A stretch of DNA of 64,000 nucleotides from Pontibacter sp. G13. Lineage in GTDB: Bacteria; Bacteroidota; Bacteroidia; J057. The notes beneath the pieces were generated by a model. It saw only the letters and a list, made by a program, of their open reading frames with translations. It did no database searches and had not been told where the DNA came from. This document shows, one piece after another, positions 2,211 through 63,645 of this stretch. The translations under genes were made by a program, and so were the position numbers. The stretch lies in NCBI RefSeq assembly GCF_031851795.1, contig NZ_CP134696.1, positions 6,386,001 through 6,450,000 on the forward strand, written 5' to 3'. The number at the start of each line of letters is the position of its first letter. The stretch's first letter is position 1.

Positions 2211-2401
2211 AATTTGGGCGTATCCCGGCGTGCTGGACAGTAGGATACTCGCTTGACCCACGAGTCGCCGGGCCGGTCCCTTCCGTGCTCGTTGCACTCG
2301 GTCTCGGATCTGGGGGCGAGAGATCGCAGCCCCCAGATCCGAGACTCCGCCTGATGGCGGCCACTCCAGGCACCTTACGCCGCACCGGCCAGCCACACAG
2401 G
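2211..2401 (-). repeat. Family A structured element, copy A1 (subtype a)
   Basis: Reads on the minus strand from a GTGTGGCTGGCC leader to a TACGCCCAAATT end. Closing stem is GGCGTA/TACGCC. The second stem is CCCGGCG/CGCCGGG (2224-2230 and 2266-2272) around 35 nt. The centre carries a perfect 16-bp hairpin (2301-2316 and 2330-2345, 13-nt loop) that matches copy A8 in shape but not in sequence. It begins about 15 nt after the stop of the YhcG-like gene and points the same way. With its flanks it fills the 318-bp gap between that gene and the DUF4349 gene. Confidence 0.85.
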
Positions 2402-7913: not shown

Positions 7914-8080
7914 TGTGCGGCTGGCATGTGTGGTGTGAGGGATGGGAATGACGCGACTTCAGGAGCGGTCCGGAGCCTTCAGCGGAGGACGGAGCACCGC
8001 GACTCATGGACAGCCCGACTCGGCGACAATCATACTTTGAGCGCAAGTCGATGCCAAGATCGCCGAGGCACACCCAAATA
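7914..8080 (+). repeat. Family A structured element, copy A2 (subtype b)
   Basis: Leader TGTGCGGCTGGC, closing stem GGTGTG/CACACC, second stem CTCGGCG/CGCCGAG (8019-8025 and 8061-8067) with a 35-nt loop, end CACCCAAAT. Both stems differ from the other copies on both sides at once. The central part is the subtype-b sequence with GGTCCGGAGC and CGGAGGACGG blocks. It follows the FMN reductase terminator by about 23 nt in the same orientation. Confidence 0.85.
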
Positions 8081-17276: not shown

Positions 17277-17317
17277 ATCGGGACAGCCCTTCATGTTGGG
17301 GTGTCCCGAATTTTTTG
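17277..17317 (+). terminator. Terminator of hemF
   Basis: TCGGGACA/TGTCCCGA stem, extended by GCCC/GGGG, followed by ATTTTTTG. Confidence 0.85.
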
Positions 17318-17324
17318 TGGGGAG

Positions 17325-17540
17325 AATTTGGGCGTGCCCGGCGGATTGGATAGGGGAGATGTCGCTTGGCAAGGTGAGCCGCCGGTCGCTGTCTTCCGGA
17401 CTCCGCTGCGCTTCGGTCGGTGGAAGACTCGCGCACGTCTGGCAGGGAGAGAACTTCGACTTGAATGGGTGCCTTGGCCCTGTAGGACTTTTTCACCGAC
17501 TACTCCTACAGGTAGCTCACGCCACACCTGCCAGCCGCAC
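17325..17540 (-). repeat. Family A structured element, copy A3 (subtype c)
   Basis: Minus-strand element: leader GTGCGGCTGGCAGGTGT, closing stem GGCGTG/CACGCC, second stem CCGGCGG/CCGCCGG (17338-17344 and 17379-17385) with a 34-nt loop. The centre is subtype c, with a GTCGGTG/CACCGAC stem enclosing variable DNA, and it also holds CCTGTAGGA/TCCTACAGG. It begins 17 nt after the stop of the membrane-protein gene and points the same way. Confidence 0.85.
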
Positions 17541-17557
17541 ATGGAGCGGAGATTCCC

Positions 17558-33614: not shown

Positions 33615-33626
33615 CGAAGCTCATCT

Positions 33627-33794
33627 GTGCGGATGGCCTGTAGCGGCGATAGGGATGGGAGCGGCGACCGTCAGGGAGGTCCGGAGCCTTCAGCGGAGGA
33701 CGGGAGCCTTTGGCGTACCCGCGGACAGCCCGACTCCGCGAATCATCTGCTTGGCAAGGAACCTGGTGCCAAGCACGCGGAGGATCGCCCAAAT
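33627..33794 (+). repeat. Family A structured element, copy A4 (subtype b)
   Basis: Leader TGTGCGGATGGCCTGTAGC, closing stem GGCGAT/ATCGCC, second stem CTCCGCG/CGCGGAG (33734-33740 and 33776-33782) with a 35-nt loop that itself folds as GCTTGGCA/TGCCAAGC. Nearly identical to copy A5 up to the loop. It begins 13 nt after a stop codon and runs in the same direction. Confidence 0.85.
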
Positions 33795-38209: not shown

Positions 38210-38380
38210 TGTGCGGATGGCCTGTGGCGGCGATAGGGATGGGAGCGGCGACCGTCAGGGAGGTCCGGAGCCTTCAGCGGAGGACGGGAGCCTTTGGCGT
38301 ACCCGCGGACAGCCCGACTCCGCGAATCTGCTGTCCGGGAAGGAACTAGGTGCCATGCACGCGGAGGATCGCCCAAATTC
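38210..38380 (+). repeat. Family A structured element, copy A5 (subtype b)
   Basis: Closest to copy A4; they agree through the whole 5' two thirds. Closing stem GGCGAT/ATCGCC, second stem CTCCGCG/CGCGGAG (38318-38324 and 38361-38367), 36-nt loop, end CGCCCAAATT. It lies between the Tat oxidoreductase and the Rpn-like gene, 50 nt before the latter's start. Confidence 0.85.
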
Positions 38381-49270: not shown

Positions 49271-49307
49271 GTGCGGACCTGCTCATCGAGTGGGTCCGCT
49301 TTTTTTG
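49271..49307 (+). terminator. Terminator of the 189-aa lipoprotein gene
   Basis: GCGGACC/GGTCCGC stem followed by a run of seven T. Confidence 0.85.
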
Positions 49308-49529
49308 TGGGCTGGCTGGTGCGGCGTAAGGGATGGGAATGGCGCGACCTTGGGAGCGGTCCGAGCGCTAACTCTTTAGCTGAAGCCAGATTGCTTTTAT
49401 GCCTAGTCAAGGGGCCATGCATCATCCATGTGCGAGGACGGAGCGCAGCGAACTCATGGAACAGCCCGGCCCGGCGATGTATTTCTCGGCGAGGAAGGTA
49501 TGTCAAGCACGCCGGGATACGCCCAGATC
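49306..49529 (+). repeat. Family A structured element, copy A6 (subtype b with insert)
   Basis: Starts at the T-run of the preceding terminator. Closing stem GGCGTA/TACGCC, second stem CCCGGCG/CGCCGGG (49470-49476 and 49510-49516) with a 33-nt loop. A stretch of about 50 bp (49372-49430) without counterpart in the other subtype-b copies interrupts the centre. About 100 bp further on lies copy A7 in the opposite orientation. Confidence 0.85.
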
Positions 49530-49632: not shown

Positions 49633-49849
49633 GATTTGGGCGTGCCCCAGCGTGCATGGCTTTCATGTTCCTCTCGGCAAGGTGGTCGCTGGGTCGCTCC
49701 CTCCCGGGCTCAGCTGGCGCTTCGGTCGGTGGATACCACAAGTCCTGTCAAGCTGGATCGCCTAAGATTCATGGGGATGTTGGAGAGATTGGTGGATTTT
49801 CTCACCGACTACCCCTTCAGACAGCTCACGCCACACTGGCCCTCCGCAC
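49633..49849 (-). repeat. Family A structured element, copy A7 (subtype c)
   Basis: Minus-strand copy: leader GTGCGGAGGGCCAGTGT, closing stem GGCGTG/CACGCC, second stem CCCAGCG/CGCTGGG (49646-49652 and 49687-49693) with a 34-nt loop. Subtype-c centre with GTCGGTG/CACCGAC. It faces copy A6 tail to tail and lies directly upstream of the toxin-antitoxin genes. Confidence 0.85.
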
Positions 49850-49942
49850 GATAGATGGTGGGCAGGTTGTTTTGTTTATTGCATTTATGGGGTTTATTTC
49901 GTTTATTCAATTTCGCACGGACTTTCACTTATATTTCCATTC

Positions 49943-54675: not shown

Positions 54676-54802
54676 GGATTCCTCTTTCGGCTGCAAAGGA
54701 GCATCTCCAGAACCTCAATTCGCTATTTTTTCGGCCGTAGCCCCACTACGCCCTGCAAAAATAGCTTCTTGAGAACCCGAACCTGCCTCTTTTCGCTTCG
54801 AA
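54676..54802 (+). repeat. Family B hairpin repeat, copy B1
   Basis: A 127-bp imperfect palindrome. Main stem GCTATTTTT/AAAAATAGC, inner stem CGTAG/CTACG; outer ends TTTCGGCTGC and GCTTCGAAA. Flanked by perfect 14-bp inverted repeats (54664-54677 and 54811-54824). Differs from copy B2 by one base. Confidence 0.85.
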
Positions 54803-54843
54803 AGATGTACCCCTCACCCCCTTCTGTTGGCGCACAGTGCCTC

Positions 54844-54970
54844 GGATTCCTCTTTCGGCTGCAAAGGAGCATCTCCAGAACCTCAATTCGCTATTTTTTC
54901 GGCCGTAGCCCCACTACGCCCTGCAAAAATAGCTTCTTGAGAACCTGAACCTGCCTCTTTTCGCTTCGAA
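54844..54970 (+). repeat. Family B hairpin repeat, copy B2
   Basis: A direct duplicate of B1 (126 of 127 positions identical) after a 41-bp spacer. It ends 27 bp before the stop of the DUF1223 gene. Confidence 0.85.
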
Positions 54971-54996
54971 GGAAGTGATGAGAACCAATTCCTTTT

Positions 54997-57138: not shown

Positions 57139-57328
57139 TGTGCGGCTGGTACGTGCGGGGTGAAGTGCCTGGAGTGGCCTCCGTCTAGGATGAGTCGCGG
57201 ATCAGCGGGCGGCGATATATCGCCCGCTGATCCGCGACCGACCGTCAGGGAGCACGAAAGGGACTGACCCAGCGACCGACCTATGCAAGCGCATACCCTA
57301 TCCCAAGCACGCTGGGACACCCCCAATA
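57139..57328 (+). repeat. Family A structured element, copy A8 (subtype a)
   Basis: Leader GTGCGGCTGGTACGTGC, closing stem GGGGTG/CACCCC, second stem CCCAGCG/CGCTGGG (57268-57274 and 57310-57316) with a 35-nt loop. Central hairpin with 18-bp perfect arms (57194-57211 and 57221-57238). Compared with copy A1 the arm positions change in pairs, keeping the pairing. Confidence 0.88.
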
Positions 57329-59875: not shown

Positions 59876-59992
59876 ATTTCGGCTGCAAGGGCTCATTTCC
59901 GGAACCTCAGTTCGCCATTTTTTCGGAAATAGCCCACTATGTCCTGTAAAAATGGCTTCCTGAGAACCCGAAACTGAACCCTTTCGCTTCGA
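59876..59992 (+). repeat. Family B hairpin repeat, copy B3
   Basis: Compared with B1, the main stem is GCCATTTTT/AAAAATGGC (both sides changed together) and the inner stem ATAG/CTAT instead of GTAG/CTAC. Starts at the rplT terminator T-run. Confidence 0.75.
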
Positions 59993-60080
59993 AATAATCT
60001 CTCTAGAAGGCTCGAATTTTCGGGTTTATCAGTTGGGAAGGTCCTCCTGAATCTTTAGATGGACGTATCTCGAAGAGAGC

Positions 60081-60216
60081 CTATTTCGGCTGCAAGGGCT
60101 TGTGTACTGGGGCACCCACAAGGGGATGCGCCCTGCTGAAAAGGCCGATTCTTGGGAGATTGTCCTGCAAAAATGGCTTCCTGAGAACCCGAAACTGATC
60201 CCTTTCGCTTCGAAAT
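60081..60216 (+). repeat. Family B repeat, copy B4 (rearranged)
   Basis: The right half matches B3 closely (CAAAAATGGCTTCCTGAGAACCCGAAAC), and the outer left end TTTCGGCTGCAAGGGCT is kept. The left stem arm is replaced by unrelated sequence, so the hairpin cannot form as in B1-B3. Confidence 0.65.
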
Positions 60217-60298
60217 GATCCCGCTTGAACGGCTCGGATTTTGTGCGCCTGCTAGACCTCAAGGAGCTAGGGAGGGAAATGCATGCAAGCGTTTGAGA

Positions 60299-60515
60299 AA
60301 TTTGGGCGTATCTCGGCGTGCTGGGCATTGGGGGAGTCTCAGGGTATTCATGTCGCCGAGTCGCTCCCTTCCGGACTCGCTGGCGCTCGGTCGGTGAAAT
60401 AGATGGGCCCTCCAGGGATACAGGATACCGTAAATGCACATGATCTATGCCCTGACTAGATCGCTTCCACCGACTGAATCCTACAGGCAGCTTACGCCGC
60501 GCAGGCCATCCGCAC
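60299..60515 (-). repeat. Family A structured element, copy A9 (subtype c)
   Basis: Minus-strand copy: leader GTGCGGATGGCCTGCGC, closing stem GGCGTA/TACGCC, second stem CTCGGCG/CGCCGAG (60312-60318 and 60354-60360) with a 35-nt loop. Centre with GTCGGTG/CACCGAC enclosing variable DNA. Lies about 80 nt downstream of the type B T9SS gene in the same direction. Confidence 0.85.
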
Positions 60516-60538
60516 TTCTAATCTGGCATTCCTCAACC

Positions 60539-63192: not shown

Positions 63193-63479
63193 GATGATCC
63201 GTGTTAGGTAAAACCATCGTTTCGGGGCAAAAATGGCTGAAAGGAATCATCACCTGTTTAGTCGCTTGTCTTGCCAAAGGTCCAGTCGGGTTGCATCTTG
63301 GTAGTGTTAGGACGGGATGGAAGATGTCTGTACTACGTGCTTGACTGCGAATCATTCAAATATCAAGAAGCGAATCTGATGTGATGTTGAATGAATTTAC
63401 CGATTCCTACGCTGAAAGCCAAGAGGTTAGCGCTGTGTCGGGTAATGGCTGCTGCTTAGCGGGGACGATTCAATTCCTA

Positions 63480-63645
63480 GTGCGGAAGGCCAGCGGCGGC
63501 GATCGGGATGGGAAGGGCGAGCGTCAGCGAGGTCCGGAGCCTTCAGCGGAGGACGGGAGCGATAGCGAACCCCTGGAACAGCCCAGCCCCGCGACTCAGA
63601 TGCCAAGTGTCAGTAAGATGCCGGGCACGCGGGGATCGCCCCAAT
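63480..63645 (+). repeat. Family A structured element, copy A10 (subtype b)
   Basis: Leader GTGCGGAAGGCC, closing stem GGCGATC/GATCGCC, second stem CCCCGCG/CGCGGGG (63587-63593 and 63628-63634) with a 34-nt loop. Subtype-b centre. It lies about 110 nt upstream of the flippase start. Confidence 0.85.

Follow-up and report, generated by a model that had tools for sequence, protein, structure and literature searches.

The repeat family in the window and in the genome

The 64 kb stretch of Pontibacter sp. G13 DNA analysed in this study, referred to below as the window, holds ten copies of an interspersed repeat, designated A1 to A10. Each consists of a frame and a centre, and the copies are named here by the type of their centre.

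2213-2399, plus strand: copy A1, type a (long hairpin)
7914-8078, minus strand: copy A2, type b short
17327-17541, plus strand: copy A3, type c, the copy of the original finding (17325-17540)
33626-33793, minus strand: copy A4, type b short
38210-38377, minus strand: copy A5, type b short
49306-49527, minus strand: copy A6, type b long, with a 71 nt insert
49635-49850, plus strand: copy A7, type c
57139-57327, minus strand: copy A8, type a
60301-60516, plus strand: copy A9, type c
63479-63644, minus strand: copy A10, type b short

The features of A3, and of the DNA just upstream of it, are as follows. The stem arms are those predicted from the sequence of this copy; P1 and P2 also covary in the type a copies.

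17280-17316, plus strand: terminator-like hairpin followed by a T run (GGGACA..TGTCCC..TTTTTT), just upstream of A3, read by eye
17331-17336, plus strand: 5′ arm of the outer stem P1, GGCGTG, pairing with 17518-17523
17338-17344, plus strand: 5′ arm of the stem P2, CCGGCGG, pairing with 17379-17385
17379-17385, plus strand: 3′ arm of P2, CCGCCGG
17416-17422, plus strand: 5′ arm of the type c closing stem of P3, GTCGGTG (from the sequence only; the covariation counts cover types a, b short and d)
17421-17495, plus strand: copy-specific insert of A3, 75 nt including the last stem bases, whose only genomic match is itself
17494-17500, plus strand: 3′ arm of the type c closing stem of P3, CACCGAC
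17518-17523, plus strand: 3′ arm of P1, CACGCC

The first-pass annotation of the window had described a fixed frame with an exchangeable centre. That description was confirmed for the ten copies, and the pattern extends genome-wide. The family comprises approximately 450 to 600 copies in the 7.67 Mb genome, with a unit of mostly 162-257 nt. When the whole genome was searched with an 18-base 5′ motif, TTTGGGCGTRYCYCGGCG, at up to three mismatches, 231 forward and 232 reverse matches were obtained (463 in all), compared with 11 and 9 (20 in all) for the reversed motif used as a control. In approximately 464 kb, made up of systematic 20 kb tiles and the window, 36 copies were flanked on both sides by called genes; extrapolated to the whole genome, this density gives roughly 600 copies.

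Two samples of copies were used. The first consists of 113 complete copies derived from 118 5′ hits; three paired hits were left out (in two the closest 3′ end was that of the following copy, and one had a displaced start), as were two further hits lacking a 3′ end, and seven copies with a 3′ end below the threshold were ended by hand. The second sample is larger but partly biased, as its copies were found by similarity. In 663 kb of genome DNA, a 3′ end was assigned to 201 of 208 5′-domain hits, giving 201 copies with both ends; six hits had no 3′ end and one was unused.

Another repeat was also observed in the window. It forms two blocks, at 54676-54985 and 59877-60229, in which internal copies are spaced by 168 and 221 nt.

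Centre types and the folded frame

Discrete centre types, designated a, b short, b long, c and d, cover 111 of the 113 copies of the first sample. Total lengths are 186-193 nt for type a, 163-169 nt for b short, mostly 220-257 nt for b long, mostly 210-221 nt for c and 162-168 nt for d. The b short centre is GTCCTCCGCTGAAGGCTCCGGAC, while that of b long is GTCCTCGG-(approximately 73 nt)-CCTCGGAC. Type d occurs outside the window, and has a short loop at the apex of P3 like that of b short. In the second sample, 63 copies were of type c, 48 of b short, 38 of a, 35 of b long and 10 of d, with seven unassigned; by eye, several of these seven are variants of a, c or d. The copy at genome position 4819439, of type c by eye, was relabelled b long by the script. 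Further modules were seen at genome positions 2387243, 4980798 and 471661, where what seems to be an additional hairpin separates P2 from P3 in two copies and one copy is d-like with a long insert.

The three subtypes proposed in the first-pass annotation all exist, but a fourth (d) and the insert-bearing b long had been missed. Subtype a, a long hairpin in A1 and A8, was borne out. Subtype b holds in its short form for A2, A4, A5 and A10, whereas A6, which had been grouped with them, is of the long form. For subtype c, the GTCGGTG/CACCGAC stem and a variable insert were recovered in A3, A7 and A9; the insert is, however, 75 nt in all three copies and not the 80-110 nt suggested.

The separation of the types was measured on the 111 classified copies, the two unclassified copies being left out. 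The nearest neighbour by centre was of the same type in 110 of the 111, pairwise centre identities were bimodal, and the silhouette of the centre types was 0.39, compared with no more than -0.04 in 200 label shuffles. The continuous gradient that the annotation had set against discrete modules was thus not found in this sample. Since the centre was the basis on which types were assigned, purity by centre is to be expected in part. The independent result is that the frame hardly follows the centre type. Centre identity in the first sample was 0.793 within types and 0.524 between them, while the corresponding values were 0.725 and 0.715 for the 5′ domain and 0.772 and 0.771 for the tail. Nearest neighbours by 5′ domain shared a type in 52 of 111 copies, which is above the chance expectation of 28. 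That the frame hardly tracks the centre type suggests that centres and frames have been recombined, that frames are strongly constrained, or both.

The consensus folds into an outer stem P1 (GGGCGTR with YACGCC), a stem P2 (CCCGGCG with CGCCGGG), a longer stem region and the P3 hairpin. Covariation was assessed in an alignment of 23 of the 27 type a copies, from which near-duplicates and one copy of odd length were left out. Changes on both sides were found in 24 of the 46 pairs. They amounted to 113 cells, whereas shuffles gave 28 and slid structures no more than 16, and 97.1% of cells were paired, compared with 37-42% when the structure was slid. These covarying helices support the earlier description of the repeat as structured. 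The structural evidence is the covariation, not the folding energy: mean z scores were -3.4 for type a and -3.1 for two unassigned copies, but lay between -0.3 and +0.9 for types b, c and d, and the single-copy fold of A3 was no stabler than its shuffles (z=0.35).

Covarying helices are also what would be expected of the main rival to a mobile DNA element, namely a structured RNA, either a Flavo-1-like sRNA or an mRNA leader or 3′ element, which acts as a transcript and has the centre as its variable domain. We consider this reading rather unlikely, although several observations speak for it. In 82 of the 113 copies the better fold is that of the minus strand (P=2e-8, uncorrected for composition), which could mark the strand of an RNA. 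The pattern of change in the helices may point the other way. Among changed standard pairs in types a, b short and d, 157 cells were altered on both sides and 12 on one; such an excess could reflect selection on DNA hairpins or conversion of both arms together.

Wobble pairs were also counted. There were 10 G.T and 20 A.C among 1406 cells when five doubtful predicted pairs, most of whose cells were G.T or next to G.T, were left out, and 73 G.T among 1519 cells when these pairs were included. In 11 tRNAs, for comparison, G.U made up 14 of 232 stem cells. The ratio of G.T to A.C disagrees between types (3:18 in a, 7:2 in b short and d). With the five pairs included, the G.T level is close to that of G.U in the tRNAs, so the wobble count alone cannot separate DNA from RNA.

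Copy-specific inserts of types c and b long

The inserts of types c and b long are of similar length despite their different closing stems. In type c, 58 of the 61 measured copies have inserts of 68-79 nt, with a median of 73; in b long, 26 of 32 lie in the same range, with a median of 73.5 (the boundary pattern failed in two of 63 c and three of 35 b long copies, that at 4819439 among them, which were not measured). No common sequence was found among the inserts, save in a few related copies. The 62 inserts of the first sample have a G+C content of 0.502, compared with 0.506 for the window, and no fold of their own was detected in them; base use is even in type c and C-rich in b long. The spread of their G+C content, 0.044, is narrower than that of genome windows (0.071), and none of 2000 resamples was as low.

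A nearly fixed length with a copy-specific sequence recalls spacers, and the inserts might be regarded as information that a scaffold has acquired, whether as spacer, guide or cargo. The tests of source and target make this reading very improbable. Each of 14 inserts compared with the whole genome matches itself, and for one of them the duplicate copy of its element is matched as well; the sole further match is a 23 nt stretch (E=0.02). The other 48 inserts, compared with 594 kb of genome, gave short, weak matches (15-31 nt, E of 0.007 or higher). No match for the 14 inserts was obtained in phage records at E values up to 0.1. Permutation tests revealed no resemblance between inserts and their own flanks (P=0.53-0.995) and no pairing of inserts with their own P2 loop. 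A signal of P2 versus upstream DNA (P=0.004) was disregarded, since a score of 45 in one copy was taken to reflect an adjoining truncated tandem copy.

Capture of coding DNA was considered separately and rejected: the 62 inserts score -0.03, compared with 0.18 for coding windows, 0.05 for windows outside long ORFs and -0.135 for shuffled inserts, and the narrow G+C spread given above tells against it as well.

The fate of the insert on duplication bears on the same question. In the closest pairs of copies, frame and insert identities were 0.96 and 0.92, 0.94 and 0.64, 0.88 and 0.59, and 0.87 and 0.74, respectively. One pair stood at 0.87 and 0.45, and most pairs with frame identity of 0.85 or less were near the level of shuffled inserts (mean 0.42, 99th percentile 0.55). 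Three related type c copies have similar inserts (0.64-0.75), although one of them has an unlike P2 loop. Inserts are therefore carried along on duplication and then drift faster than the frame, at nearly fixed length, so that a permissive loop constrained in length is the best description of the insert.

The inserts are thus copy-specific, as the first-pass annotation had proposed to check for type c, with matches in the whole-genome comparison of 14 limited to the element itself, its duplicate and the 23 nt stretch. The roles that it had suggested for them fared less well. Neither acquired cargo nor a target or guide function is supported, given the lack of phage matches (14 inserts), of likeness to the flanks, of pairing with the P2 loop and of any genomic source or target beyond the element and the 23 nt stretch (14 inserts), the scores below those of coding DNA, and the drift of inserts in duplicated copies. 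The scaffold with a variable centre was confirmed, and its structure and mobility were supported.

Seven turns of B-DNA span 73.5 bp. The closeness of the insert length to this value is suggestive only, and a neutral loop in which indels are rare could also keep its length.

Possible mobility, relatives and the nature of the element

Type a copies that are 94-98% identical lie at different loci, and their homology stops at TTTGGG and CCGCAC. The 3′ boundary is sharp, while at the 5′ edge a few weakly conserved bases precede TTTGGG. These near-identical copies at different loci, together with the high copy number, support the mobility suggested earlier. No clear excess of direct repeats indicative of target-site duplication was detected in 197 copies at 49 boundary offsets. 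No pair of filled and empty sites was obtained for this genome, the genus of which holds a single genome.

Near-identical type a copies at genome positions 4754368 and 6232895 each have a further repeat, CCTGAAAATCCCCGCG..GGATTTATCAGG, close downstream, at different distances.

The copies are mostly intergenic. According to crude gene calls, one of the 36 copies with genes on both sides shares more than 60 nt with a predicted gene, and two lie between divergent genes. Where the flanking genes are in tandem, 14 copies lie on the opposite strand and eight on the same strand, and placement in both orientations counts against the RNA reading. Neighbouring copies are paired tail-to-tail in 21 of 26 cases and head-to-head in three; the remaining two are tandem, consisting of overlapping hits that share one 3′ end.

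Such placement invites comparison with REP, BIME and REPIN repeats, which are likewise interspersed, intergenic, hairpin-forming and present in high copy number, often as inverted pairs, with no detected target duplication. A repeat of this type, mobilised by a RAYT (Y1 tyrosine transposase), would account for the copy number, the location, the hairpins and the strong tail-to-tail pairing, which resembles that of BIME and REPIN pairs. The element differs, however, in its size, its several helices and its modular centre. REPs are described in the available text of PMC3733652 as palindromes of 20-40 bp with a GTAG or CGTC tag, and are thus far smaller than copies of mostly 162-257 nt. In addition, no association with Y1 genes was found: neither of the two Y1 genes of this genome carries the element within 1.5 kb, both lying among other tandem repeats, and only one of 30 Flavobacterium Y1 loci has both element ends in that range, with a single half-motif in seven more (one-mismatch patterns, by which some could be missed). 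A REP/RAYT origin is accordingly judged distinctly improbable, and the search for a mobilising enzyme, made through Y1 transposase association, yielded none.

The unrelated tandem repeats that flank the two Y1 genes (864-1355 and 1962-2361 in L039; 1123-1261 and 1854-2070 in L040) themselves resemble a REP-RAYT arrangement.

Two other classes of element offer partial likenesses. Similar to MITEs, the copies are short, dispersed, non-autonomous and geneless; unlike MITEs, they have ends that by eye do not resemble each other (TTTGGG.../...CCGCAC), and no target-site duplication was detected. In the attC site of integrons, as in the present element, a folded strand combines conserved outer arms with a variable centre, but the present element is dispersed singly or as tail-to-tail pairs and was not seen in cassette arrays. 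Longer, autonomous copies were sought among 141 pattern matches in related records and rejected, the longest frame-to-frame spans being 309 and 341 nt; in 13 of the 141 no 3′ end was found, several of these lying near the end of a stretch.

Relatives were identified with a strict frame pattern, which gave at least 119 matching stretches. The 80 matches listed are mostly from Bacteroidota (Flavobacterium, Hyunsoonleella, Chryseobacterium, Epilithonimonas, Pedobacter, Mucilaginibacter, Saprospiraceae MAGs and others), with a few Treponema, Spirochaetes, Fibrobacter and Myxococcales records and one Defluviicoccus match that looks like chance within a gene. Among these matches, the Bacteroidota-wide frame carries variable P2 and P3. 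The exact pattern occurs in 19 of 395 genomes of the phylum, and at four places in the present genome. Fourteen stretches from viral collections (L237-L250) hold the frame pattern as well, and may represent prophage or mis-binned host DNA. A model built from types b short and d of this genome found eight of 60 relatives including itself, the other seven weakly (best E=8e-8).

Some of these relatives overlap a candidate RNA family. Rfam Flavo-1 (RF01705), typed 'Gene; sRNA', overlaps GGGCGT-frame elements on the opposite strand in four of 18 loci scanned (L127, L131, L173 and L178), an overlap that favours the RNA reading. Flavo-1 and the present repeat both have conserved flanks round a variable hairpin, and the present repeat has its frame in common with the elements that RF01705 matches; RF01705 differs in being a 76 nt model on the opposite strand without the P1/P2 frame. 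Under stricter filters, by which weak matches are lost, RF01705 matched 21 of 148 genomes of the phylum, with 24-29 matches in nine of them, where no more than 29 candidates were scored, and none in the present genome. The window itself matched no Rfam family at the gathering score, and further scanning gave only chance-level matches, none of them to RF01705 at E values up to 10.

The available text of PMC2864571, from 2010, gives Flavo-1 as a candidate RNA lacking a cis-regulatory role, and a 2022 review names it without a function in the part accessible (PMC9029176). In Flavobacterium psychrophilum, hits to Flavo-1 are reported to lie sense or antisense to transcribed regions indistinctly, and many to lie in none (PMC9723704, available portion), which argues against action as a transcript. 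Flavobacterium is named only in a table in the accessible sections of a 2025 survey of REPs (PMC12306157), and those of a paper on Porphyromonas gingivalis repeats (PMC5771137) contain nothing on this repeat family. No publication that describes the repeat, or that ties Flavo-1 to a larger repeat, was found in the open-licence literature.

A locus in Flavobacterium provides further support for the RNA reading. Both frame ends of a related element were found in 10 of 30 orthologous stretches (L281-L310), and by eye the element lies upstream of a start codon. Identity was 0.83 and 0.81 for the frame arms, 0.52 for the centre, 0.59 and 0.58 for the flanks and 0.67 for an adjoining, largely coding stretch; in one stretch (L283) the element resembles a deletion remnant by eye. 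The frame has thus been kept while the centre has diverged, a pattern that speaks for a constrained frame and not for simple decay; conservation of the frame at an orthologous place in turn suggests selection at the level of the host, and not a selfish insertion in decay. These Flavobacterium elements have an outer frame of TTAGCCC..TAGCTCC; their core, but not their outer stem, is common to the GGGCGT-frame elements, and outer frames too may be interchangeable.

Taken together, the data lead us to favour, at about even confidence, the view that the element is a non-autonomous, structured, interspersed mobile repeat with a constrained frame and a permissive centre. On this model, a DNA unit with a sharp 3′ end would have spread by copying to hundreds of sites, mostly between genes and in both orientations. 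Pairing, constraint on the sequence or exchange of sequence among copies would maintain the frame, which consists of P1, P2, the base of P3 and the CCAGCCGCAC tail. At the apex of P3 there would be a permissive slot for a long hairpin (type a), a short loop (b short and d) or an insert of approximately 73 nt closed by a short stem (c and b long). Mobility would be conferred in trans by a putative enzyme recognising the folded strand, as hairpin or cruciform DNA, and modules may be exchanged between copies by recombination or conversion. Weighing against this model are the failure of the Y1 search to yield a mobiliser, the unremarkable folding energies of types b, c and d, the better fold of the minus strand and the frame conserved at the Flavobacterium locus.

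A bolder proposal, which we regard as unlikely, is that these repeats constitute a new class of modular mobile DNA element acting via folded DNA and not RNA. The insert would then be a spacer ruled by length and free in sequence, of approximately 73 nt (near seven turns of B-DNA), shared by two centre types whose closing stems differ; hundreds of copies would shuffle their centres and frames, and Flavo-1 RNA would be one corner of this DNA superfamily.

For the mobile-repeat interpretation in general, the significance of the results is twofold. Flavo-1 is linked to a larger repeat whose centres are interchangeable, whose copies lie on both strands and in inverted pairs, and whose helices covary mostly on both sides, which provides a testable alternative for that family, namely that it is moving DNA. 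In addition, an insert of nearly fixed length and free sequence inside a folded repeat is unusual, and offers a handle on the geometry that the putative mobiliser may need.
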